64,000 nucleotides of DNA, taken from Antedon mediterranea (lineage: Eukaryota > Echinodermata > Crinoidea > Comatulida > Antedonidae). Made by a program: the position numbers and the translations under genes. This document shows positions 43,371 through 64,000 of this stretch, in pieces (positions within the stretch are counted from its first letter, which is position 1; each line of letters starts with the position of its first letter). The stretch is from positions 23,028,001-23,092,000 of the forward strand of contig NC_092674.1 in assembly GCF_964355755.1 (NCBI RefSeq), in the 5' to 3' direction. The notes under the pieces are model-generated. The model ran no database searches and was not told the DNA's origin. It saw only the letters and a program-made list of their open reading frames with translations.

Positions 43371-43697
43371 AGGTAGAACCTCTATAAAAGGGGCCCCAGA
43401 TATATTTGGTGACTTTGTTGCTTTTGGGGTCCCAGGACATTTGTGATGTCGAATAAATAAATGAAATGACTTTCAAGACCAAACAAGGTATCCCCTTAAC
43501 GGTTGTCTTCTGAATAGGGGTGTCCCCTGAATAGGGATGTCCCCTGAATAGGGGTGTCCCCTGAATAGGGATGTCCCCTGAATAGGGGTGTCCCCTGAAT
43601 AGGGATGTCCCCTGAATAGGGGTGTCCCCTGAATAGGGGTGTCCCCTGAATAGGGATGTCCCCTGAATAGGGGTGTCCCAAAGAGGGTCCTACTGTA
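43371..43697. repeat. AACCTC element with internal 17-bp minisatellite
   Basis: Left end GTAGAACCTCTATA (43373) and right end AGAGGGTCCTACTGTA (to 43697) are imperfect inverted repeats matching the ends of the element at 29663-29811. Between 43500 and 43680 lie about ten tandem 17-bp units, GAATAGGGGTGTCCCCT, with variants in the run of G. The array therefore sits inside a defined mobile element. Confidence 0.75.
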
Positions 43698-46675: not shown

Positions 46676-49600
46676 TACAGTAGAACCCTATTAAGAGAAC
46701 AAATTATAGGGTTCAATCAAGTTGGGGTTAAATCGAATGGGGTTAAACATATATTGACCTTTGTTTCACAGGAATGTATCGCCTTATTACGGCCGGGTAT
46801 CCACTGAATAGGGGGTATCCACTGAATAGGGGGTATCCACTGAATAGGGGGTGTCCACTGAATAGGGGGTGTCCACTGAATAGGGGATGTCCACTGAATA
46901 AGGGGTGTTCGCTGAATAAGGGGTGTTCGCTGAATAAGGAGTGTCCACTGAATAGGAGGTGTCCACTGAATAGTTGTCCACTGAATAGGGGGTGTCCACT
47001 GAATAAGGGGTGTCCACTGAATAAGGGGTGTCCACTGAATAGGGGGTGTCCACTGAATAGGGAGTGTCCACTGAATAGGGAGTGTCCACTGAATAGGGGT
47101 GTCCACTGAATAGAGAGTGTCCATTGAATAGAGAGTGTCCACTGAATAAGGGGTATCCACTGAATAGGGGGTGTCCACTGAATAGGGGTATCCACTAAAT
47201 AGGGGATGTCCACTGAATAGAGGGTGTCCACTGAATAGAAAGTGTCCACTGAATAGGGGATGTCCACTGAATAGAGGGTTTCCACTGAATAGGGAGTGTC
47301 CACTGAATAATGGGTGTCCACTGAATAGGGGTGTCCACTGAATAGGGAGTGTCCACTGAATAGGGGGTGTCCACTGAATAGGGAGTGTCCACTGAATAAG
47401 GGATGTCCGCTGAATAAGGGGTGTCCGCTGAATAATGGTTGTCCACTGAATAAGAGGTGTCCACTGAATAGGGGATGTCAACTGAATAGAGGGTGTCCAC
47501 TGAATACGGAGTGTTCACTGAATGAGGGGTTTTCACTGAATGAGGAGTGTCCACTGAATAGGGAGTGTTCACTGAATGAGGGGTGTCCACTGAATAGGGA
47601 GTGTCCACTGAATAGGGGGTGTCCACTGAATAGGGGGTGTCCACTGAATAGGGGGTGTCCACTGAATAAGGGGTGTCCACTGAATAGGGGGTGTCCACTG
47701 AATAGGGAGTGTCCACTGAATAGGGAGTGTCCACTGAATAGGGGTGTCCACAGAATAGAGAGTGTCCAGTGAATAGAGAGTGTCCACTGAATAGGGGGTA
47801 TCCACTGAATTGAGATGTCCACTGAATAGGGGTGTCCACTGAATAGGGAGTGTCCACTGAATAGGGGGTGTCCACTGAATAGAGAGTGTCCATTGAATAG
47901 AGAGTGTCCACTGAATAGGGGGTATCCACTGAATTGGGGTGTCCACTGAATAGGGGGTATCCACTGAATAGGGGGTATCCACTGAATAGGGGGTGTCCAC
48001 TGAATAGGGGGTGTCCACTGAATAGAGGTATCCACTAAATAGGGGATGTCCACTGAATAGAGGGTGTCCACTGAATAGAAAGTGTCCACTGAATAGGAGG
48101 TGTCCACTGAATAGGGGGTGTCCACTGAATAAGGGGTGTCAACTGAATAGGGAGTGTCCACTGAATAGGAGGTGTCCACTGAATAGGGGGTGTCAACTGA
48201 ATAATGGGTGTCCACTGAATAGGGGTGTCCACTGAATAGGGGTGTCCACTGAATAGGGGGTGTCCACTGAATATGGAGTGTTCACTGAATAAGGGGTGTC
48301 CACTGAATAGGGAGTGTCCACTGAATAGGAGGTGTCCACTGAATAAGGGGTGTCCACTGAATAATGGGTGTCCACTGAATAGGGGTGTCCACTGAATAGG
48401 GAGTGTTCACTGAATAGGGGGTGTCCACTGAATAGAGAGTGTCCACTGAATAAGGGATGTCCGCTGAATAAGGGGTGTCCGCTGAATAAGGGGTGTCCAC
48501 TGAATAAGAGGTGTCCACTGAATATGGAGTGTTCACTGAATGAGGGGTGTTCACTGAATGAGGGGTGTTCACTGAATGAGGGGTTTTCACTGAATAAGGG
48601 GTGTTCACTGAATGAGGGGTGTTCACTGAAAAAGGGGTGTCCACTGAATAGGGAGTGTCCACTGAATAAAGGGTGTCCACTGAATTGGGAGTGTCCACTG
48701 AATAAGGGGTGTCCACTGAATAGGGGGTGTTCACTGAATAAGGGGTGTTCATTGAATAAGGGGTGTTCATTGAATAAGGGGTGTTCATTGAATAAGGGGT
48801 GTCCACTGAATAGGGAGTGTCCACTGAATAGGGAGTGTCCACTGAATAGGGGTGTCCACAGAATAGAGAGTGTCCAGTGAATAGAGAGTGTCCACTGAAT
48901 AGGGGGTATCCACTGAATTGAGATGTCCACTGAATAGGGGTGTCCACTGAATAGGGAGTGTCCACTGAATAGGGGGTGTCCACTGAATAGAGAGTGTCCA
49001 TTGAATAGAGAGTGTCCACTGAATAGGGGGTATCCACTGAATTGGGGTGTCCACTGAATAGGGGGTATCCACTGAATAGGGGGTATCCACTGAATAGGGG
49101 GTATCCACTGAATAGGGGGTGTCCACTGAATAGAGGTATCCACTGAATAGAGGTATCCACTAAATAGGGGATGTCCACTGAATAGAGGGTGTCCACTGAA
49201 TAGAAAGTGTCCACTGAATAGGAGGTGTCCACTGAATAAGGGGTGTCAACTGAATAGGGAGTGTCCACTGAATAGGAGGTGTCCACTGAATAGGGGGTGT
49301 CAACTGAATAATGGGTGTCCACTGAATAGGGGTGTCCACTGAATAGGGGTGTCCACTGAATATGGAGTGTTCACTGAATAAGGGGTGTCCACTGAATAGG
49401 GAGTGTCCACTGAATAGGAGGTGTCCACTGAATAGGGGGTGTCCACTGAATAATGGGTGTCCACTGAATAGGGGTGTCCACTGAATAGGGAGTGTTCACT
49501 GAATAGGGGGTGTCCACTGAATAGAGAGTGTCCACTGAATAAGGGATGTCCGCTGAATAAGGGGTGTCCGCTGAATAAGGGGTGTCCACTGAATAAGAGG

Positions 49601-51272
49601 TGTCCACTGAATATGGAGTGTTCACTGAATGAGGGGTGTTCACTGAATGAGGGGTGTTCACTGAATGAGGGGTTTTCACTGAATAAGGGGTGTTCACTGA
49701 ATGAGGGGTGTTCACTGAAAAAGGGGTGTCCACTGAATAGGGAGTGTCCACTGAATAAAGGGTGTCCACTGAATTGGGAGTGTCCACTGAATAAGGGGTG
49801 TCCACTGAATAGGGGGTGTTCACTGAATAAGGGGTGTTCATTGAATAAGGGGTGTTCATTGAATAAGGGGTGTTCATTGAATAAGGGGTGTCCACTGAAT
49901 AGGGAGTGTCCACTGAATAGGGAGTGTCCACTGAATAGGGGTGTCCACAGAATAGAGAGTGTCCAGTGAATAGAGAGTGTCCACTGAATAGGGGGTATCC
50001 ACTGAATTGAGATGTCCACTGAATAGGGGTGTCCACTGAATAGGGAGTGTCCACTGAATAGGGGGTGTCCACTGAATAGAGAGTGTCCATTGAATAGAGA
50101 GTGTCCACTGAATAGGGGGTATCCACTGAATTGGGGTGTCCACTGAATAGGGGGTATCCACTGAATAGGGGGTATCCACTGAATAGGGGGTGTCCACTGA
50201 ATAGGGGGTGTCCACTGAATAGAGGTATCCACTAAATAGGGGATGTCCACTGAATAGAGGGTGTCCACTGAATAGAAAGTGTCCACTGAATAGGAGGTGT
50301 CCACTGAATAGGGGGTGTCCACTGAATAAGGGGTGTCAACTGAATAGGGAGTGTCCACTGAATAGGAGGTGTCCACTGAATAGGGGGTGTCAACTGAATA
50401 ATGGGTGTCCACTGAATAGGGGTGTCCACTGAATAGGGGTGTCCACTGAATAGGGGGTGTCCACTGAATATGGAGTGTTCACTGAATAAGGGGTGTCCAC
50501 TGAATAGGGAGTGTCCACTGAATAGGAGGTGTCCACTGAATAGGGGGTGTCCACTGAATAATGGGTGTCCACTGAATAGGGGTGTCCACTGAATAGGGAG
50601 TGTTCACTGAATAGGGGGTGTCCACTGAATAGAGAGTGTCCACTGAATAAGGGATGTCCGCTGAATAAGGGGTGTCCGCTGAATAAGGGGTGTCCACTGA
50701 ATAAGAGGTGTCCACTGAATATGGAGTGTTCACTGAATGAGGGGTGTTCACTGAATGAGGGGTGTTCACTGAATTAGGGGTTTTCACTGAATAAGGGGTG
50801 TTCACTGAATGAGGGGTGTTCACTGAAAAAGGGGTGTCCACTGAATAGGGAGTGTCCACTGAATAAAGGGTGTCCACTGAATTGGGAGTGTCCACTGAAT
50901 AAGGGGTGTCCACTGAATAGGGGGTGTTCACTGAATAAGGGGTGTTCATTGAATAAGGGGTGTTCATTGAATAAGGGGTGTTCATTGAATAAGGGGTGTT
51001 TACTGAATAAGGGGTGTCCACTGAATAGGAGGTGTCCACTGAATAGGGGGTGTCCATTGAATAAGGGGTGTCCATTGAATAAGGGGTGTCCACTGAATAG
51101 GGGTGTCCACTGAATAAGGGGTGTCCACTGAATAAGGAGTGTCCACTAAAGAGGGTGTGTCCACTAAAGAGGGTGTGTCCACTGAATAAGGGGTGTCCAC
51201 TGAATAAGGGGTGTCCACTGAATAGGGGGTGTCCACTGAATAGGAGGTGTCCACTGAATAGGGGGTGTCCAC
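46676..51272. repeat. 4.5 kb 18-bp minisatellite with ~1.1 kb higher-order repeat
   Basis: From about 46795 to 51272 there are roughly 250 tandem units of CCACTGAATAGGGGGTGT and variants (17-19 bp). The left boundary has TACAGTAGAACCCTATTAAG (46676), the end of the AACCTC element family; the matching right end is not visible. Higher-order structure: the variant CACAGAATAG recurs at 47751, 48859 and 49948, and GGTTTTCAC at about 47530, 48584, 49673 and 50781 (spacings 1054-1108). Blocks of more than 350 bp around 48524 and 49613 encode the same peptides unit for unit. The period is a multiple of three and four of six frames lack stops, so long repeat ORFs appear on both strands; none is a gene. 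Confidence 0.95.
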
Positions 51273-51479
51273 TTTTGAATTAACATTTTACATTACGGTA
51301 AGTTGACATATTGTCGATAGATAATGTTTATTAAAGCATGGTATACTGTATTCAAAGTATATTGGTTATGATCTGTCATTACCGTTTCTCCGTGTTATAG
51401 AAATATTCCATATGTTTGATTTTGTACTTGAAGAAATACAATACTGTACATTTGTTATTTGGTTTTCATGATTTAAAAA

Positions 51480-53000
51480 AAATACAAAAATCCCTGTACA
51501 CGGATTTTTTCAAAAATTTGCCAAATTCGACCCTTTTATTTTTGTATATAAATGGTCACTATGTCTATAAGATGATGATATAACGCAATATAATAGTATT
51601 TTGAAAAATCCCTGAACTATATTACAGGGATTTTTTCGAAAAAATAACCAAATTTCAACCCTTTCATATTTGGATATAAATGGTCACTATACGTCTATAA
51701 GATGATGATAACGCTGTGCAGTATATGCACATATATAGCAATATTATTGCATAATAATAGTTTTTTGAAAAGTGAATATAATTTGGTCATTTTTAGAAAT
51801 TTTCTAAAAAAATGGCCGATTTTCTACCCTTTTTTTTTTTTACATAAATGGTTACTATAGCATAAAAAACATGCGCAGAATCGAATAATGGGTTGCGCAT
51901 GTCAATTGTGACATACATGGTTACTATAGCATAATAAACATGCGCATAGTCGACTAATGGGTTCTGCGCATGTTAATTGTGCTATAGTAACAAGTTTTAT
52001 CAAAAAATAAAAAGGTCGAAAATTGGCCATTTATTGGAAAAAATCCCTGTACTATAGTACAAGAAAATTTCCGAAAAATGGCCGATTTTCGACCCTTTTA
52101 TTTTTCGACATAAATGGTTACTATAGCATAATAAACATGCCCAGAGTCGACTAATGGGTTCTGCGCATGTTAATTGTGCTATAGTAACCAGGAAAATTTC
52201 CGAAAAATGGCTGATTTTCGACCCTTTTATTTTTTGACATAAATGGTTACTATTGCATAATTAACATGCGCAGAGTCGAATAATGGGTTCTGCGCATGTC
52301 AATTGTGTTTGTGCTATAGTAACCACTTTTGACATAAATGGTTACTATAGCATATAAACATGCGCAGAGTCGATTAATGGGTTCTGCGCATGTTAATTGT
52401 GCTATAGTAACCAGTTTTATCGAAAAATAAAAAGGTCGAAAATTGGCCATTTTTTTTTAAAAATCCCTGTACTATAGTACAGAAAAATTTCCGAAAAATG
52501 GCCGATTTTCAACCCTTTTATTTTTTTACATAAATGGTTACTATAGCATAAAAAACATGCGCAGAGTCGTATAATGGGTTCTGCGCATGTTAATTGTGCT
52601 ATAGTAACCAGTTTTATCGAAAAATAAAAAGGTTGAAAATTTGCCATTTTTTCGAAAAAATTCCTGTACTATAGTACAGGAAAATTTCCGAAAAATGGCC
52701 GATTTTCGACCCTTTTATTTTTTTACATAAATGGTTACTATAGCATAAAAAACATGCGCAGAATCGAATAATGGATTCTGCCCATGTTAATTGTGCTATA
52801 GTAACCACTTTTGACATAAATGGTTACTATAGCATAATAAACATGCGCAGAGTCGACTAATGGGTTCTGCGCATGTTAATTGAGCTATAGTAACCAGTTT
52901 TAACGAAAAATAAAAAGGTCGAAAATTTGCCATTTTTTTGAAAAAATCCCTGTAAAATTTCCGAAAAATGGCCGATTTTAATAATGGGTTCTGCGCTTAA
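51480..53000. repeat. Palindromic satellite
   Basis: About 1.5 kb of tandem units near 190-200 bp (plus shorter deleted forms). Each unit is itself an inverted repeat: TGGTTACTATAGCA...CATGCGCAGA, a short centre with TAATGGGT, then TCTGCGCATG...TGCTATAGTAACCA. Outer arms (TGGCCGATTTTCGACC and GGTCGAAAATTGGCCA) and a CCTGTACTATAGTACAGG palindrome separate units. Frames at 52250-52817 are artefacts of the repeat. Confidence 0.88.
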
Positions 53001-53716: not shown

Positions 53717-56700
53717 TTAGTATCCTTTAGACTTCTTGTAGTTTCCGCCACTCCTTTAAAGAAAAACAAGATTTAATGATTACTTCACAATGTTTGTTAT
53801 GTTTCACCACTTTTAACATGTGAAATCCTTAGATATACCAACAGGATTATTTCACAATGCCTTTTCTGCTTCAACAAACATCTAGAAAAAAGTACCTGCT
53901 ATCTTTTAACGTTATGTAAAAGCCTTATAGCAACAGGATTATTTCACAATGCTTTTTCTTCGCAATAAATATTTCACTTGGTTCTTTATATTGAAGCCAC
54001 TTCAAGCTACTTCTCCACATTTAATCTAGGTATTTGCCATTGCATGCATACATATTGCAGGTTGTTAAAAATATGAAAATACTTACCCATCACCTGTTCC
54101 TGTAGCTTTTCTTTTGGCAATAATCTACAAGAAATGTTAACATTTTTGTTAATCAAATTACACCTTTTAATATTTAATTCAAGCTTAACTGCAAACTACA
54201 GGGAGACTTTCAAATTGTACCAAGTTCTTTAATGTTCAATATATGTACACAGAAGCAATGGCTTTACGTCCCACAAAAGATGAGGAAATTAAGGGCATTC
54301 AATATGACGGACTTGCCAATATTAATTCCGATCCCTTACCATTATAAGACCAGATTTATTTTGTTTATTACCTGTTGAATCTTGTTCCATTCCTTGTCCA
54401 GTTCTGCCTTTTCATTCTTCTGACCCCCAACTCTGCGAGTTTTACGTCCCTCAGACATCTTTAAACCAAATTGGAATGCAGCCCTGCAAAATTATACCGG
54501 TAATTGTTTAAGAGATGACAACAATACGCAGCAATGATCTCATATTAGTTAGTCTTTACAATTTGGTGGACTAGATGCTGCAGATTTAACCTTATGCTCA
54601 TCCTATAAAGATCACATCACCTACAGAAGCAATGCATGCTTGAAAGGATTTTTTCAGAGGCGGATTGCTATAAAACAGTCTTAACTGATGACTTAACTAC
54701 CCGATTAAATCAGCTGGCTTTATCAGATAGACGGCCTTACTAAAGCCACCCCTGTTAGACCTTATAAAACAGTCTTATTTAAGACCGCGTACAGTAACAA
54801 ATTGAGGGCGTACTTTATGCGTAGAATACCAACTTATTTGATTTAACATTTAAAACTCGTTCAATTGGTTGTCTTTTACGATCAATAATACGTATAAGCA
54901 ACAGAAATGTAACTCTAGTAGTAACCAATATCACATCATTTTGAGTGTTATTTTGCAAATGCCTACAAAGTTACACTGCAGCTTACTTTAGACAAGTTTT
55001 TCTGATGGTATCTAAATATGTTCATCAAAAATTTTAAAAGAAATGCTATCTTATAAGAGTCGTAACCAGAATGAAAATGTTTATTGTTTTATATAAAAGA
55101 AAAAGCATTGATACTATAAGTCACGCCCGTATTCTTAAACCGGACTTTAGTTGTAGTTTGAAGTTCGACTTGAAAAAGTCGTAGTTCGAGCTATTACTTC
55201 AAATTCGATTCAAAAACAAAGTAGTCGAAGTTTGCAGTTCGACTTAATGAAGTCGAGCTTTTAGTCGAGTTGCACACGTCTGGGTAACAAAGGCTATACA
55301 TTGGCCAATGACAAGAGAGTATTTGAGGAGCAGACGAAATTTTGCGCATTGATATCACTTTCCATTTTCTTACAACACTTTTTACGCATCAGGACTATAT
55401 ACATGAAAAGTAATTTTAATCGTTAATTATTAGAACAAGATCAGTATCAATTTAACAGTGAAGTACTTTCGATTAACAACAAACAAAATATTCAAAATAT
55501 ATTCAGGAACCATGGCGGTACAGTAACTTTTATATTTTCTAGGCCCCCAACAAAGTATGATCGCGACGAACCACGCACTTCATCGCGTGACAAGAAAGCG
55601 CTAGGCCCCCTAAACATTCCATCGCGTGGTGAATTCCCGCATCTGTCATTGTCGCTATGGCGTGACGTAATTCAAGTCGGACTTGCGCGAAGAAAATAAT
55701 GTAATTTGTATACGGTTGTAAATAAAGATTATTTTCAATATTATAACTTATACCAATGTATACTTAATTAAGCTAATATAAAAATAGATATTTCATTTTT
55801 CAATATCTGGCCAATATAACAACTCAATGACTGTTACATTTTTCATAAACATCGTTTAAAAACCATTTAGTCGACCATTTAGCCTGCCCCCTCCAGGACT
55901 AAAAAAATCAATCAAAATTCGTCTCGATTTAGTCGAGGTTGGCCTGAATTAGTCGGCGATTTAGTTGAAGTTCGGTTTATGAATTAAAACGACGTCATTT
56001 TTAAAGTTTTAGCTCGAACTACGACTAAAGTCCGGTTTAAGAATATGGGCGTAAGTGTTTATTAATATCTTACTTTGGCATAGCTTCTTTGTTGTTCATG
56101 TAGCTACTGTAATCGTCCTGTGTTTCGAAATCCCAGCGACTTAAGGGGCCTTTCTTGTTACCCTGAAATCAACAATATATAAACAGAAATTAGTTTTGGA
56201 GAAACCGGACTGTTCTAAGGTTAATATTTGTATATAATACAATGTGTTAAAAACCACTATCATTCTATACAGTAACTTTTACAAATGTTATGTAAACTCA
56301 ACTTTAATTGAACTACAGCAAAGTTTCAACCAACGAAAATTTAAAAAGAAATAATTCAATGCGAGAAGTTCATCTTTACATGTATAAGTAATGGTAAAAA
56401 CTTCTAATACGTATACAGTATATTACATGTAATACATGTACATTATAATGTACAGTGTTTCAAACATGGCTAAAGAAAAACAAATATATCTTGTATGTTT
56501 GCATTCATAATTATGATAATCTTACCAAATCCATTTTACTGTAGTCTGCTTCATCATCAGAGTCGTCACATGCATCAATGCTTTCCATCAATCTATGAAA
56601 GAAAATGATACATTATTAGCGTAATAGGTTAGCACAACAAGACTAACATCTTTATGAATAATCAATATCTCGTTAAATGTGAAATGAGGTTTGTTTTGTA

Positions 56701-59700
56701 TTTTATTTGTTATGATTGTGTGTGTGTTTGTTTCTTTCTTAATACATTTGTTAAGCTCTGTCTACACTATCAAACTTTATGTGACAAAAAATGTGATGTG
56801 CCCGTATATATGGTTATGATGATATCATTTCACTAACATATTTGAGCATATCACTACCATATTTGGGCACATCACACTTTTTTTGTGAAACAAGTTTGAT
56901 AGTGTAGACAGAGCTATAGTTAGGATTACTCAAAAAGTTATTACCCAATGTTCATATCATTTAAAGGACAGTTCCATAGCTGTATGGGAACACGTCATTA
57001 AATGTTCATATACTTAAAGCGGAAGTTTGTGCCCTTCTATTTTGTCATTAAAACAATTACTGTATTAAAAATAATAATTATTATTTCCACTAAAACGACA
57101 CAGTTTTTGCTTTAAGAAGTGTACTGTATTTTCAGGACACTGAGAACACCTGAGAAACGTTTCCACAAAGCAGAATTCTCGCCGGTATCTTCCACCACTC
57201 AGAATTTTCCAACCACCACATTCATGACTATTTTTCAAATTCAAAATGACAAGATAAAAGGGGCATTCAATTTACGTTTCCATCGTTACGTTTCCCAGCA
57301 CTAGCCTAATAACAATGTTTGCGAATTTCGAAGACCAAATCGTGTATACTTACCCAGGATAGCATTCAGCGTAACTTCCGCCAGGGTCTTCAGATTTACC
57401 CCCTCTATGTTTGCCTCGCCTTAATTAGAGAAAAGAAAATACAATATAACTTTTTTATGAGTATAAAATAAAATTTAAAAAAAAATAAAAAAAAAAAAAA
57501 TTATGCAAAAATTCCAAGTATTTGTGCAACTCCACTCCCTAAGCCTCAAATGGACAGTAACAGTATAGTGTGCCTAGTATAAAATAATAATTATAAATAA
57601 TAGTATTGGAATAAAATACTTACGATCGTTTATCTTCATGTCTATCCGACGTATATAACAAGTTAAAGATTTGGGAAGTGTTTTTTTTGTACAATAAAGT
57701 CTCCTAATACCACCCTGGGACGATCAATATTTTTTAGTTTTCTGTGGGCATTTAAAGTAAATTAATTATTACGGTATTATATATCTGTATGTATTAGTTG
57801 TTATTATATATTGTACTGGATGGCAAAAATTGAAATAAGATTATAAATAACAAAAGGATATTTCTTATCAACTGTTGTGAATGTTCCAGCAAATCTACCA
57901 TCAGGTTCAGAAGATTGCTAACAAAAAAAGAAGAAAAGGATGTCATTTGAAACCAATTTTGTATAATTAATGTACACGGAATAGTATGAAATGTTTCCAT
58001 TCTAAAAATTGTAATCTAATCAAATTGAGAGAAGAGTAAAATCAAGATTTAACTTAGTCATTATGGTGCTGTTTATCTTGATGATGTTAAACGTCTTCTT
58101 CTTGTTTATTTAACCGTTAACTTCAAGCCATCGTTGACTGAAGTTGACATATGCATTACCTTTGCGTGAGAGAGACCGGCAACTTATGTACATTATTATG
58201 TATATCTATTTTTTTATTTTATTTTTTATTTCATTATTACTTAAATAATAAATTTATATTAAATAATAGGCAGTCCTTTAACCTAAGGTCCCTTAGGTGC
58301 TCTCCCCTGGGCCAGGAGGATCCTAAAGTTCATAATGGGCAGGGTCACTCATGTCCCTGATCGGATCACTGCACCTAAACTACAGTAGCAAATACAATTG
58401 TTCTTGTTTAACAACATATAAAAGAAATGAAATATATGTAAATCACATACCTTAGAAGATCCATACTTTTTAATGATATTTTGGACAAGATCTTTTCCTC
58501 CAGTTGATGAGGATGACGATCTTGATTCTTGTATTCCCTAATTAAATGAAAAAATAGATGCATTAGGAAAACATGGAGGGATTAAGAAAACATAGAGACA
58601 TTAGTACATAACTCGTGACTGTTTTCACAAATTCCACTGCTACATAATTAAAATTTTTCTTTCACTTTAATATTCTTTAAACTTACCTCTCCTCTATCTT
58701 GAGGTTTCTCAAAGTAACTTCTATGTTTGTGGTCACGGTCATCGCTACGTCCGCCACGGTCACGCGTCTTGCTGCTTTTTTCTCGCCTCTCTTCTTTAGA
58801 TTTTGGTTTTACAAACGACGGTGGTGCATAATCACCCACATCATTGAAAATACTAAAAGCAATAACAACAAAATTACCTTTACAGTCTTATGAAAATCTG
58901 AATATAATTATAAGGTAATTATTAAATTTAAATTAATTATACAAAGGTGAATTTTTAGTGATGTCACAAATGTTATTCTTATAAAAGTAAATTCTGTGTT
59001 ATTCAATCTACAAATTAATGGCAAATGTGATAGAACATGGTAAAAAATAATAAAATTTTCAAATACAAAAAAAACAAATACCTATAACAAATAGTATATT
59101 CACATGTTTGTTTGGAATTAATTAATCTGAAAATCTATTAAATTTTTGCTTGTGTTGTTTGTTTAATGGTACTAGAATAACAATATGGAGAGAATAATGC
59201 TTACAAACTGAATGTTTTTTTTTACTTACTTATCATCATGGCCAGGTAATTTTTCCTTCATTTCTTCTTTCAGTTTTCCTATTATAAACAATATTAAATG
59301 TTAAAAAATAATACTTAGTTTAGGATATGCGATGATTAGTTCTCCGTAACGTTATAGCAACATATATTTACACTTTTAATCATATACCTAAGGTTTTGGG
59401 CTTCGTCAAGAAAAGAGTCTGTGAAAACATTACACATATTAATTCACATTTTTAAAACATTATTAATTGATATAAACCTTTTTCTTTCTTCTTCAACTTT
59501 CTTCCTCTTTGTCCTTGCCGTAAATATGACAGAATCTGAGTCAGCTTGTTAATTACAATATCATTTGCCGTCAGTGTAGTATGCGACTAAAAATAGGTAT
59601 AAAACAATTGTTAGTGTTTTGTTGTAGTCATTGCCATTTATTCAGTATTTGTGCCAATTACTGTATATGATCAGGGTAGGGGGTTAAAAAGAGAGAAACA

Positions 59701-62700
59701 TTGCACTACCTAAGTACCTTGCGTCGAATGTCCTCTCGACGGTCTTTAGACCTAGCCTAGGTAGGCTTAGTTTTGTAGGCCAAGCTGGTAAACAGCAGTA
59801 ACATATGAATATCGTACGCTAGCTATAGGCCTGACGTTGTCCAATTGCTGCATTAAATTGTCTTTCTGTTTTTGCCAGAATTCGGTAATTCAGATTGGGG
59901 AAAACCAGGAATTTCCGCTAAAAAGGTACGAGTCTTCCATTTGTTTTGGCCTTACGATCGATTGAAAGTGTGGACGAATCACAGAATAAAAACAAAAATA
60001 TCAATCCCCGCTATGTATGTTGGGATTTATAGCGAGCCACTTAATTTATTAGAATTGACTTATTTTTTACATTTCTAACCATTTAAAGATGAAAAAAGTT
60101 ATCACAATAGGACCATATAGTATTTATTTTTACATTAAATGTAGTTTGTGACCTTAAATTAGGTCTAAAGAATGTAGGGAATCGGATTTACCTCCATTGT
60201 AGGACAGTCTGCTTTGCTACGTATCACAGTAGTAGGAATATCACTTTCAGCGTAATCGTCATCTAGTTCTACCTTGTACGCCATACGGCCTGGCAAAAAC
60301 AACTCATTACGCTCTGGTGGACGTTTCTTGAATAATGTACGGTACACATTCTTTCCTGTAAAATATTTTATTAGTAAATATGAAATTCCTACTAGGACTA
60401 GCCTATAATAAATGATCTGTTTGCCTCTCTGTCACTCTAAATGTATAATGTTCTTTTGACACATTCTTGTATGCTTCTTTATCTTTAAATTACTGTACTA
60501 CAGTATACTTATGCCAGTCATTCTTTATGGAAATTCATTGATCACATATGTACTAACAATTAAAAACTGAAAATACATAAATATTAAAGAAATTCAAATA
60601 AGTAATAATAATTAAATAAGAGTGTATAGATGTGGTAAGAGGAGTATGAGGTCCGAGGCAGATCACACTAGTTTGGATCATTATCTCAAAAAGTGGACCT
60701 CTGGTAATAAAACAAAATTTGGGGCTGTGATGTGGAATAAACTTCATTTCGAGATCAAGGAACAAATCATGGTTTTGAAACATCTATTTCCTAAGTAGTA
60801 ACTCGTTTTTGCGTCTTTTTTATGTAAAGCGCTTTGTTTATTTTTTCTTTTGGAAAAGTGCTATATAAATTATAATAAATATTTAAAAAATGAAAGCAAT
60901 GCTAATAATATACTAATAATATAAATGTACAGTAATAACAAAATCGATTACTCACCCACTCTTGTCTTGAAAGAAATATGCTCATCTTCAACTACCGGTT
61001 TCTTAACTTCTTTAACAGGCTCCCTAATAAAAGCAAAATATATCACTATAAACATGTAGTTCAATATATGCATTTTCTGTCAGAATTAGAACATGAATCT
61101 ACCAACTTGAATCTGTATTTTAGTAACGCAAGCAGAGATTGAATAAAAAAAAAAATTCTGTTTGTATTGTTTGAGGGTCCCTAATGATCAGCTTATGCTA
61201 GATGGATCACCCTTATTAAATATTGTTTAAATAAAATGCTACTTTATAATGCATAAATGATTTTTATGCTGACCAATAGGGACATGACTGATGAGTGAGT
61301 GATGATGGAACTCAATAACACCATGAGTCTGAACATACTATTATATTATTTACTTACTTTGTTTCTTCTTTGATTGCGTTCTTGAAACTCTCTTCCATCA
61401 CCTCTTCCTCTTCTTTCTCTTTGTGAGTTATCTCAGCTCGAACCTTAAAAGAAATTGAAAGGACTTCATCTCTCAAAGTATTACTAATTTCTGGAATTCT
61501 CTTCTCGACTATGTGGTAACAGCTCCCTTTACAAGGCCGTAGTAATAGGTTAAAAACAGACAAGGCAAAGATGCTTTAAATATAATTATTAATATAAAAC
61601 ATGACGATCTGTGCTGGGGAATTAGGGTGGGTGGTGAAAATTTCACACAAGGCGAGGTAAAGGCCACATAAGGCATAACTTTTTCACACTACTATCAAGT
61701 AAGTAAATGTATGTTGATTGACCAAATAAATGTCATTCAATGTATAACAGGGTCCATAATATACTGTAGTTCACAATTATGATTCATTAACAAGCCATGT
61801 AAACCTGTCCAAGAAGAAATAGAATTTTGAAAAGTTAACTGTTTCAGAGCATAGATTTCATCTGTCAAAAATTTGACCTCCTATAGTTTATTTTGGTGGT
61901 AAAATGCCCTCCTGTTCCCGTGTGTTAATAGAAGACTAGCCTTGCAAAAATCCAGTGTGTTTAAAAAAAATTTCATACAACAGCGAGAAACTCGCCAATT
62001 AAAGGATAGATAAACTATTTAAAAATGTATTGCTGTTGTTTCCGGCTTTATGTTATTAATTTATTCTCTTTCAGTAAGTAGCATGCCTATACCTTTTGTA
62101 AGAGGGCATAATCAAGACCTTTCACCAAATGAGTATGCTCCATGTCACCTCCAAGATATTTACTCTCTTCAATCAATTGCTTACGACGATTAGCGGCAGT
62201 ATCCCCACTAAAAAAAAAGCAACATCAAACCAATTACCAATGATTAATTACCATTACCATGTGCAATATTGAATAATTATTATAGTAAGTAATTCTTGAT
62301 CTTTCATCAGAGAATTGTGTTGTTATAGTGTTTATTTGTGTTGGTGCAATTTTCTGTGTATTTTTATACATTATATATATTTATATAATTTTATGATGAT
62401 ATGCCAGTTTTTCAAAGCAAATTAAATTCTGTTAATTTCTTTTTAATGGACAAATAAAGATATGACAATAATTTTGGTAGATTTCCATAAACATATTTAT
62501 ACAAAAATAAAAACTCATGAATGTTAACCGTGATAAATAAATGTGGATCGGAACACTACTTTTCCAAAATACCTTATCCTTGTTTTTGGTTATGTTACAG
62601 TGACCTGCCTTAACCGTGAAGCCACTTAACTTATCTAAAGTGTTTCTTTAATGGAAATAGAAACAGATTGCTTACGACTGAACATCGGGGGCGACTGCTC

Positions 62701-64000
62701 GGTAGTTTGCGGTTGTACTAACCATCTCTGTCTCTTCATAATCTGTCTTTCCTTCTCGTCGTTCACGAGCCTACCAAGAAAAATATCAAAGGTCAAACCC
62801 AGTGAAGCACAAGAAAAAATGATGCAACCAACTATCATTATTTACTATTATTCTATATTTATTCAATATATTTGAAAATATGAAAAAAAAAAAAAACAAT
62901 AAAGAAAATTCATATTTACACTAGGAAAAATTATTTTAGGGCACGGCATAAAAAAAAAGAAATTATTTCACAATGCTTGGTTTGCTTTCCTCTGCCGTAA
63001 AAAAGGGCGTTATTAACTATGTGGATGCACTGTAGTTGATTATATTTTAAACCAGGATTTACCCTTCAATATACCATTCAATATAACCTTCAATATACAG
63101 TAAAAATTCAACATAACATTCAATATAACATAACATACCCTATCCCTGTATCTCTTAGCAAGTTCAGCTTCTCTCTCAGCTTCCTGCTTCTTCAACTTAG
63201 CATAGAATCTGAAAAATAAATAAATGAAAATCAAATAATGTCAATAACGTAATGTTATTCTAGTAGTAAAATAAAGAAATGATTTATTATATTTATTTCT
63301 AACATTAGAAAATAAAACAAAAAGCAACAACGAGCAAAATAGAAGGTTAAGATGTTGATACTTACATTTTTCTTTTCCTTCGCTTTGCTCGAGGATCATC
63401 ATCTTCGTTATATTCCCTGGGGACACTATGATTAAAAAAATAAGTTTTAAATTTAACAGTCAAGCCGATTTGTGAATGACTAGATATATCCCTTTTACCT
63501 TGATCTTACTTTTCCTATACTGTATGGGTAATATTTATGTGGTCTTCAAGCTTATAATTTTTTAATCCCTGATAAAAACTAGCATCTTTAGCACTTTGGT
63601 AGATATGTGCGCTTAACAAATCTTATTATATTACAATTTGTAACAGTGGTCCAACCCAATCAACAATTCTAGATACATACGATTGACCATGAGTCTACAG
63701 CTTCATTTTTAATTGAAGTGCTTTGGTTGAATCTCCTTTTATGTTGGTATTCAGACAAGGCAGTGTCAACTATGTGATTACAGTTCACTATAGTCAAAGT
63801 CGACCTTGTGTATGGGCACAGGGGGTGTGCCAACCATGTTGATAAAATACTTGATTAAATGGTGAACTGTGCCGATAGCAAAAAAAACTATATGCACAAA
63901 AGACTGTGCCTTGTATTGAACAGAAAGTAATAGCAAACCTTGTTTTGTGTTCTCGCGATTTTGAAGACGAAGATGACATTGATGATGGTGGTGCTTCACC
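53717..64000 (-). CDS. IK: RED/IK spliceosomal protein (partial, N-terminus outside)
   Basis: Minus-strand exons in transcript order: 64000-63939 (cut by window end), 63425-63366, 63208-63139, 62770-62676, 62207-62093, 61443-61358, 61023-60956, 60355-60192, 59586-59478, 59278-59230, 58852-58687, 58537-58451, 57917-57862, 57650-57624, 57419-57354, 56592-56526, 56162-56074, 54483-54372, 54124-54087, 53753-53717 (stop 53719-53717). The 20 exons give 1623 nt and 540 residues in one unbroken frame; human RED has about 557, so some 45 N-terminal residues are missing. Diagnostic stretches: REYNEDDDP, YRDRAREERREG-like, ERNELFLPGRMAY, DIPTTVIRSKADCPTME, NDIVINKLTQILSYLRQG, SYAECYPG, GNKKGPLSRWDFETQ, MSEGRKTRR. 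The family's long RE/RD repeat is reduced to a short charged region (about 293-348). Known: RED acts with SMU1 in the spliceosomal B complex. One intron is AT-AC. The first poly(A)-like hexamer after the stop is ATTAAA (minus strand of 53356-53361). Confidence 0.95.
53778..53965 (-). repeat. Repeated CATTGTGAAATAATC motif in the last IK intron
   Basis: On the + strand GATTATTTCACAATG occurs near 53845 and 53936 (each preceded by CAACAG; spacing about 92 bp) and as GATTACTTCACAATG near 53778. A fourth relative, TTATTTCACAATGC, lies near 62966 in another IK intron. Degenerate direct repeat of unknown origin. Confidence 0.5.
55124..56051 (-). mobile_element. Harbinger-like non-autonomous element, copy 2
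   Basis: 928 bp, inverted relative to copy 1 (39745-40669) and alike along its whole length. Ends CGCCCGTATTCTTAAACCGG and ...TTTAAGAATATGGGCG; flanks TCA (55121-55123) and TAA (56052-56054), best read as a mutated 3-bp TWA duplication. The 36-codon frame (minus strand, 55649 down to the stop at 55541-55539) is intact, with a few substitutions. It lies in the IK intron and its edge is only 22 nt past the 5' splice site of exon 56162-56074. Confidence 0.65.
56753..56916. mobile_element. MITE, TA-flanked family, copy 4
   Basis: 164 bp, the best-preserved copy: AAGCTCTGTCTACACTATCA at the left and TGATAGTGTAGACAGAGCT at the right form an inverted repeat of about 30 bp that continues into ACTTTATGTGACAAAAA. 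It lies in the IK intron between exons 57419-57354 and 56592-56526. Confidence 0.8.
57624..57650 (-). other. IK: 27-nt IK microexon
   Basis: Encodes K/S-D-R-H-E-D-K-R-S (shared codons at both ends). Entered by the AT-AC intron (or, 9 nt later, by an in-frame AG at 57643-57642) and left by a GTAAG donor. Phase 2 in and phase 2 out, so its use keeps frame with SRGKHRGG in the next exon. Confidence 0.75.
57651..57861 (-). other. IK: U12-type AT-AC intron in IK
   Basis: 211-nt intron. Its 5' end is ATATCCTTTT, an exact match to the minor-spliceosome AT-AC donor consensus. Its 3' end is ...TTATATAC, and TCTTTAAC (57669-57662) fits the U12 branch point, with the branch A 12 nt from the end, inside the short window these introns need. 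No GT donor in this region gives the correct phase. Confidence 0.85.
60622..60890 (+). mobile_element. L2/CR1-like LINE 3' end
   Basis: The + strand frame 60622-60798 (58 codons, stop TAG) ends KFGAVMWNKLHFEIKEQ...LKHLF, the W-N-x-L-x-x-x-I-K pattern of LINE C-termini. It is followed by TAAAGCGCTTTGTTTATT and GTGCTATATAAAT, the characteristic 3' tail of this clade. It lies in an IK intron in antisense orientation. Confidence 0.55.

Follow-up and report, generated by a model that had tools for sequence, protein, structure and literature searches.

A probable U12-type AT-AC intron next to a 27-nt microexon in the IK/RED gene of Antedon mediterranea

Introduction

The excerpts of PMC2831892 used here quote ATATCCTT as the consensus of the U12-type 5' splice site and TCCTTAAC as the consensus of the branch site. 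Table 2 of the same article (section 8) assigns an AT-AC U12-type intron to PHB2 of both fly and human. For splicing factor 3a subunit 1 (SF3A1), the table gives a U12-type intron that is present in fly and absent in human. More generally, the portions of PMC6865273 and PMC9501576 drawn upon here describe genes with minor introns as enriched in information-processing or RNA-processing functions.

Both listed genes served as controls in the genome of Antedon mediterranea. In PHB2, ATATCCTTTC is found after ...AESAIM and CCTTAACATTGATTTGTAC before LGEAIS, and a hand count places the branch A about 13 nt from the intron end. In SF3A1 the sequence GTATCCTTCC follows PPPEVR and TTCTTAAACGTAAATTTTATAG precedes the exon encoding IVDKT, which gives a U12-like GT-AG intron (L008 4739-5929). 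Its branch element agrees with TCCTTAAC at 6/8 positions, so the intron fits the U12-type GT-AG class well, though not perfectly.

An earlier note on this locus had proposed a U12-type AT-AC intron and an adjoining microexon in the gene for IK, also named RED. Like the PHB2 intron, the IK intron starts with ATATCCTT and carries a TTAAC branch element 12-13 nt before its AC end. The host genes differ, however, and PHB2 was matched to fly and human by gene and not by residue-level intron position. With SF3A1, the IK locus shares the occurrence of a minor-class intron inside a gene for a major-spliceosome protein, which in the case of SF3A1 holds for fly and for this genome. In contrast to IK, the SF3A1 intron is of the GT-AG instead of the AT-AC type, its branch element is the 6/8 match mentioned above, and no adjoining microexon was noted.

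Results

The modelled part of the IK/RED gene is located on the minus strand at 54372..63425 of the window, i.e. of the whole 64-kb stretch of DNA that was analysed. It comprises 17 exons running from 63425 to 54372; the upstream exons including the start, as well as the last ~20 codons, lie outside the model. Translation of the joined exons from 63208 to 54372 yields a single open frame, the AT-AC junction included. The exon upstream of 63208 (63425-63366) was read by eye and is followed by a GTAAGT donor after 63366. The predicted IK protein aligns to residues 80-536 of the 557 residues of human Protein Red with 496.0 bits (E 1.6e-147). Both domains of the family are present, with 319.4 bits for RED_N (cut-off 22) and 155.2 bits for RED_C (cut-off 27). 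For the profile scan a version of the protein with small errors at two junctions was used, which were corrected for the human alignment; the first residue of the proteins scored against human RED and the domain profiles derives from an unverified junction. On the basis of the human alignment and of both domain scores, the assignment of the gene to IK/RED in the earlier note holds, and human IK/RED (Protein Red, PDB 5o9z, 6q8i) belongs to the same protein family across the modelled length. A search of the 354-Mb genome (18 contigs) with the RED_N profile returned four matches, all of which (4/4) fall inside this gene.

Of the 16 introns in the model, the first (after 63366) was left out of the count; the other 15 have verified ends, 14 of them GT-AG and one AT-AC. 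A very weak GT donor (AAG/GTTTAT, -0.1 bits) was placed by homology and frame at the intron 59477-59279 on the minus strand.

Several repeats were observed in the surroundings of the gene. Downstream of the IK exons a minisatellite at 46795-51273 contains ~250 copies of an 18-nt unit (GGGTGTCCACTGAATAGG), and a 17-nt relative is present in 10 copies at 43510-43679. A tandem array with a 197-nt unit (~4.5 copies) occupies 51909-52812. A dispersed element resembling CTACACTATCAAACTT...GTGTGATGTGCCCAAATATGG is found in an IK intron (56750-56920) and in a PHB2 intron on another contig (L007 3880-4160); it looks like a short inverted-repeat element.

The exon upstream of the AT-AC intron (57862..57917, minus strand) has a length of 56 nt and ends with GATAAGAA. 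The strong U2 acceptor before it scores 9.3 bits when the matrix is trained without this site. The following intron (57651..57861, minus strand) comprises 211 nt and is of the U12 type by sequence. It starts with ATATCCTTTT at 57861 and ends with TTGTTATATAC at 57651 (also printed as AAATCTTTAACTTGTTATATAC). The 5' splice site ATATCCTTTT (57852..57861, minus strand) matches the consensus ATATCCTT at all 8/8 positions from +1 to +8, and the branch-site element TCTTTAAC (57662..57669, minus strand) matches TCCTTAAC at 7/8 positions, its branch A being 12 nt before the intron end. The features of a U12-type AT-AC intron are found together, namely the 5' splice site, a branch site near the 3' end, the AC end and in-frame joining. 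Within the 442-nt stretch 57861-57420, leaving aside its first 40 nt, no AC or AG other than the one before 57650 has a branch match of at least 6/8 located 8-20 nt upstream. The intron lies in phase 2, consistent with the under-representation of phase 0 among minor introns that is reported in the cited part of PMC10639083.

The intron is followed by an in-frame microexon of 27 nt (57624..57650, minus strand), which together with flanking bases encodes SDRHEDKRS. After the microexon a GTAAGT donor is found (letters GTAAGTATTTT / GTAAGTATT), which scores 5.2 bits and opens a GT-AG intron of 204 nt (57420..57623, minus strand). The acceptor of the latter reaches 8.8 bits against a matrix trained without it. 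The next exon (57354..57419, minus strand) encodes RGKHRGGKSEDPGGSYAECYPG and includes the conserved SYAECYP. The earlier note had given these boundaries for the exon (57917-57862), the intron (57861-57651) and the microexon (57650-57624), and the letters confirm them; they likewise agree with its description of a U12-type AT-AC donor, an AC end at 57651 and a branch A 12 nt from the acceptor. The frame is restored via the microexon into SYAECYPG as it had claimed, the joined exons being open. Its wording on the end of RED homology at the upstream exon is loose, given the poor conservation of this stretch in comparison with human RED.

In the AT-rich window, single motifs occur at chance level. 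ATATCCTTT was seen twice (1.67 expected), and TCTTTAAC followed by AC at N{8,13} three times (1.59 expected). Motif counts alone were consequently rejected as evidence, and it is the combination of signals that carries the weight. When the stretch 57917-57420 was shuffled, 182 of 20,000 shuffles had ATATCCTT at a distance of 10-210 nt from the start, and 47 of 20,000 had the longer ATATCCTTTT there. Shuffling of 57861-57420 produced a correctly spaced branch site matching 7/8 or more positions, together with AC, in 1692 of 20,000 cases; in 301 of 20,000 a U2 donor scoring 5 bits or more came next, and the arrangement was in addition in frame and open in 27 of 20,000. The resulting joint chance of ~1.2e-5 (182/20,000 x 27/20,000) assumes independence and refers to thresholds that were chosen after seeing the site.

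For a comparison with other ways of splicing, all paths from donor 58451 to the SYAECYP exon with zero, one or two internal exons were enumerated at a threshold of 2 bits, which left 7 donors and 13 acceptors. In this enumeration the acceptor matrix was trained on the acceptors of the IK gene itself, including the two tested, and in both enumerations the U2 donor frequencies are assumed values. Five paths are in frame and open. The path with the AT-AC intron described above ranks best, and at 2 bits no other path makes use of the two strong acceptors 57917 and 57419 together. A second AT-AC path runs via 58015 and the weak acceptor 57414. The remaining three paths are GT-AG only; every one depends on 57414 (2.5 bits), and two combine it with donor 57899 (3.1 bits). 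Since the homology-supported donor 59478 scores only -0.1 bits, the enumeration was repeated with looser thresholds, i.e. with donors down to -1 and acceptors down to 0 bits, GC donors allowed and both main acceptors left out of training. Under these settings 43 GT/GC-AG-only paths are in frame and open. AT-AG pairs lay outside both enumerations.

It is very unlikely that splicing here is GT-AG only, with 57917-57899 joined to 57414 or another weak-site path in use and with merely coincidental AT-AC signals. The joining of 57899 to 57414 is in frame and open, gives QSSEPDGKHRGGK... and scores 492.4 bits to human RED, i.e. 3.6 bits below the form with the AT-AC intron; the IK gene also employs the donor of -0.1 bits at 59478, and the loose thresholds admit the 43 paths mentioned above. 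However, the 3.1 bits of 57899 are combined with an acceptor whose 2.5 bits drop to 1.3 when both main acceptors are left out of training, and which sits 5 nt past a much better acceptor. None of the best 12 of the 43 paths does without a site scoring 1.3 bits or lower, and the one path among the 43 that uses both strong acceptors passes through sites of 3.1, 1.5 and -0.5 bits. In addition, a perfect U12 5' splice site, a branch site, an AC end and an in-frame exon with GTAAGT would all be left to chance. As judged from these site scores, the GT-AG alternatives appear possible on paper but poor. The statement in the earlier note that the exon has no usable in-phase GT donor is too strong, because weak GT donors such as 57899 exist and, in combination with weak partner sites, allow in-frame reading.

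A second alternative accepts the U12 5' splice site and lets the microexon be skipped in some or all transcripts, so that 57862 is joined directly to 57419 across an AT-AG intron. The frame would be kept, because 27 nt is a multiple of three. The AG before 57419, however, lacks a branch match of at least 6/8, whereas the site before 57650 has one, and leaving out the microexon lowers the score to human RED from 496.0 to 489.5 bits. We therefore regard skipping as highly improbable. The EDKR of the microexon stands near human EDKK in the alignment. Score differences for or against the microexon are small, and the protein stretch is weakly conserved with human RED.

Removal of the intron by the major spliceosome in spite of its AT-AC ends is extremely unlikely: such U2-type introns are known, e.g. 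from sodium channel genes, but those in the cited sections of PMC2831892 all carry G at +5, whereas the IK intron has C at +5 like the U12 consensus and a U12-type branch site at the right distance.

The genome contains the components that a U12-type intron would use. U12 (125.7 bits), U6atac (136.6 bits), U4atac (97.6 bits) and two U11 genes (88.6 and 82.9 bits) were all detected above the Rfam cut-offs. The Rfam scan of the 64-kb window gave no match. The two U11 snRNA genes are located on different contigs (L004 and L005 1501-1629). A second U6atac match at L003 with 33.7 bits is just above the cut-off of 33 and may be a decayed copy. CENATAC, which promotes AT-AN minor intron splicing according to the part of PMC8280824 cited here, is represented by 5 matched stretches in one place with a best score of 70.3 bits. 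The energies of pairing between the IK signals and the genome's own snRNAs were also calculated. They were equalled by 94 (U11), 263 (U6atac) and 338 (U12) of 2000 shuffles, and were rejected as evidence since shuffles often equal them.

Discussion

From its sequence it is very probable that the intron 57861-57651 of IK/RED is a genuine U12-type AT-AC intron. This reading, put forward in the earlier note, is supported by the three intron signals, the reading frame, the presence of minor-spliceosome snRNAs and CENATAC, and the PHB2 and SF3A1 controls. In the splicing that we propose, AUAUCCUUUU would be recognised by U11 through base pairing and UCUUUAAC by U12, after which U6atac would take the place of U11. 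The ...AA at 57862 would be ligated to the G at 57650 by the minor spliceosome. Splicing of the 27-nt exon to 57419 would fall to the major spliceosome and lead to ...VDKKSDRHEDKRSRGKHRGGK...SYAECYPG. We thus infer that the intron is spliced by the minor spliceosome in cells, and if it is removed in this way, full-length RED mRNA would need the minor spliceosome.

The IK intron is a further example of a known intron class and not a new kind. Because SF3A1 is a precedent, both through its listing in fly and in this genome, surprise at the point of the earlier note, that a component of the major spliceosome appears to depend on the minor one, is only partly deserved. Together with the enrichment of minor-intron genes in RNA-processing functions, this precedent places IK as one more case. 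In the literature covered (IK, RED, SMU1, minor introns, microexons and echinoderms), IK was nowhere seen to be named among minor-intron genes; as a negative result this is weak evidence, with a two-letter symbol that is unsearchable and supplementary gene lists outside the coverage.

AT-AC minor introns are reported to be less efficiently spliced. It is conceivable, though we consider it unlikely, that the IK intron acts as a control point. In that case the supply of RED would follow the activity of the minor spliceosome (U6atac, CENATAC), one intron would couple minor-spliceosome capacity to genome-wide splicing of short introns, and the in-frame 27-nt exon could be a further switch. In human cells RED is required chiefly for short-intron splicing, as described in the sections of PMC6692369 cited here, which makes a possible effect of minor-spliceosome activity on major splicing testable.

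An AT-AC intron beside a tiny exon would be missed or mis-modelled by gene finders that consider GT-AG introns only. With the intron described here, the gene for the B-complex splicing factor IK joins SF3A1 among those with an apparent need for both spliceosomes.
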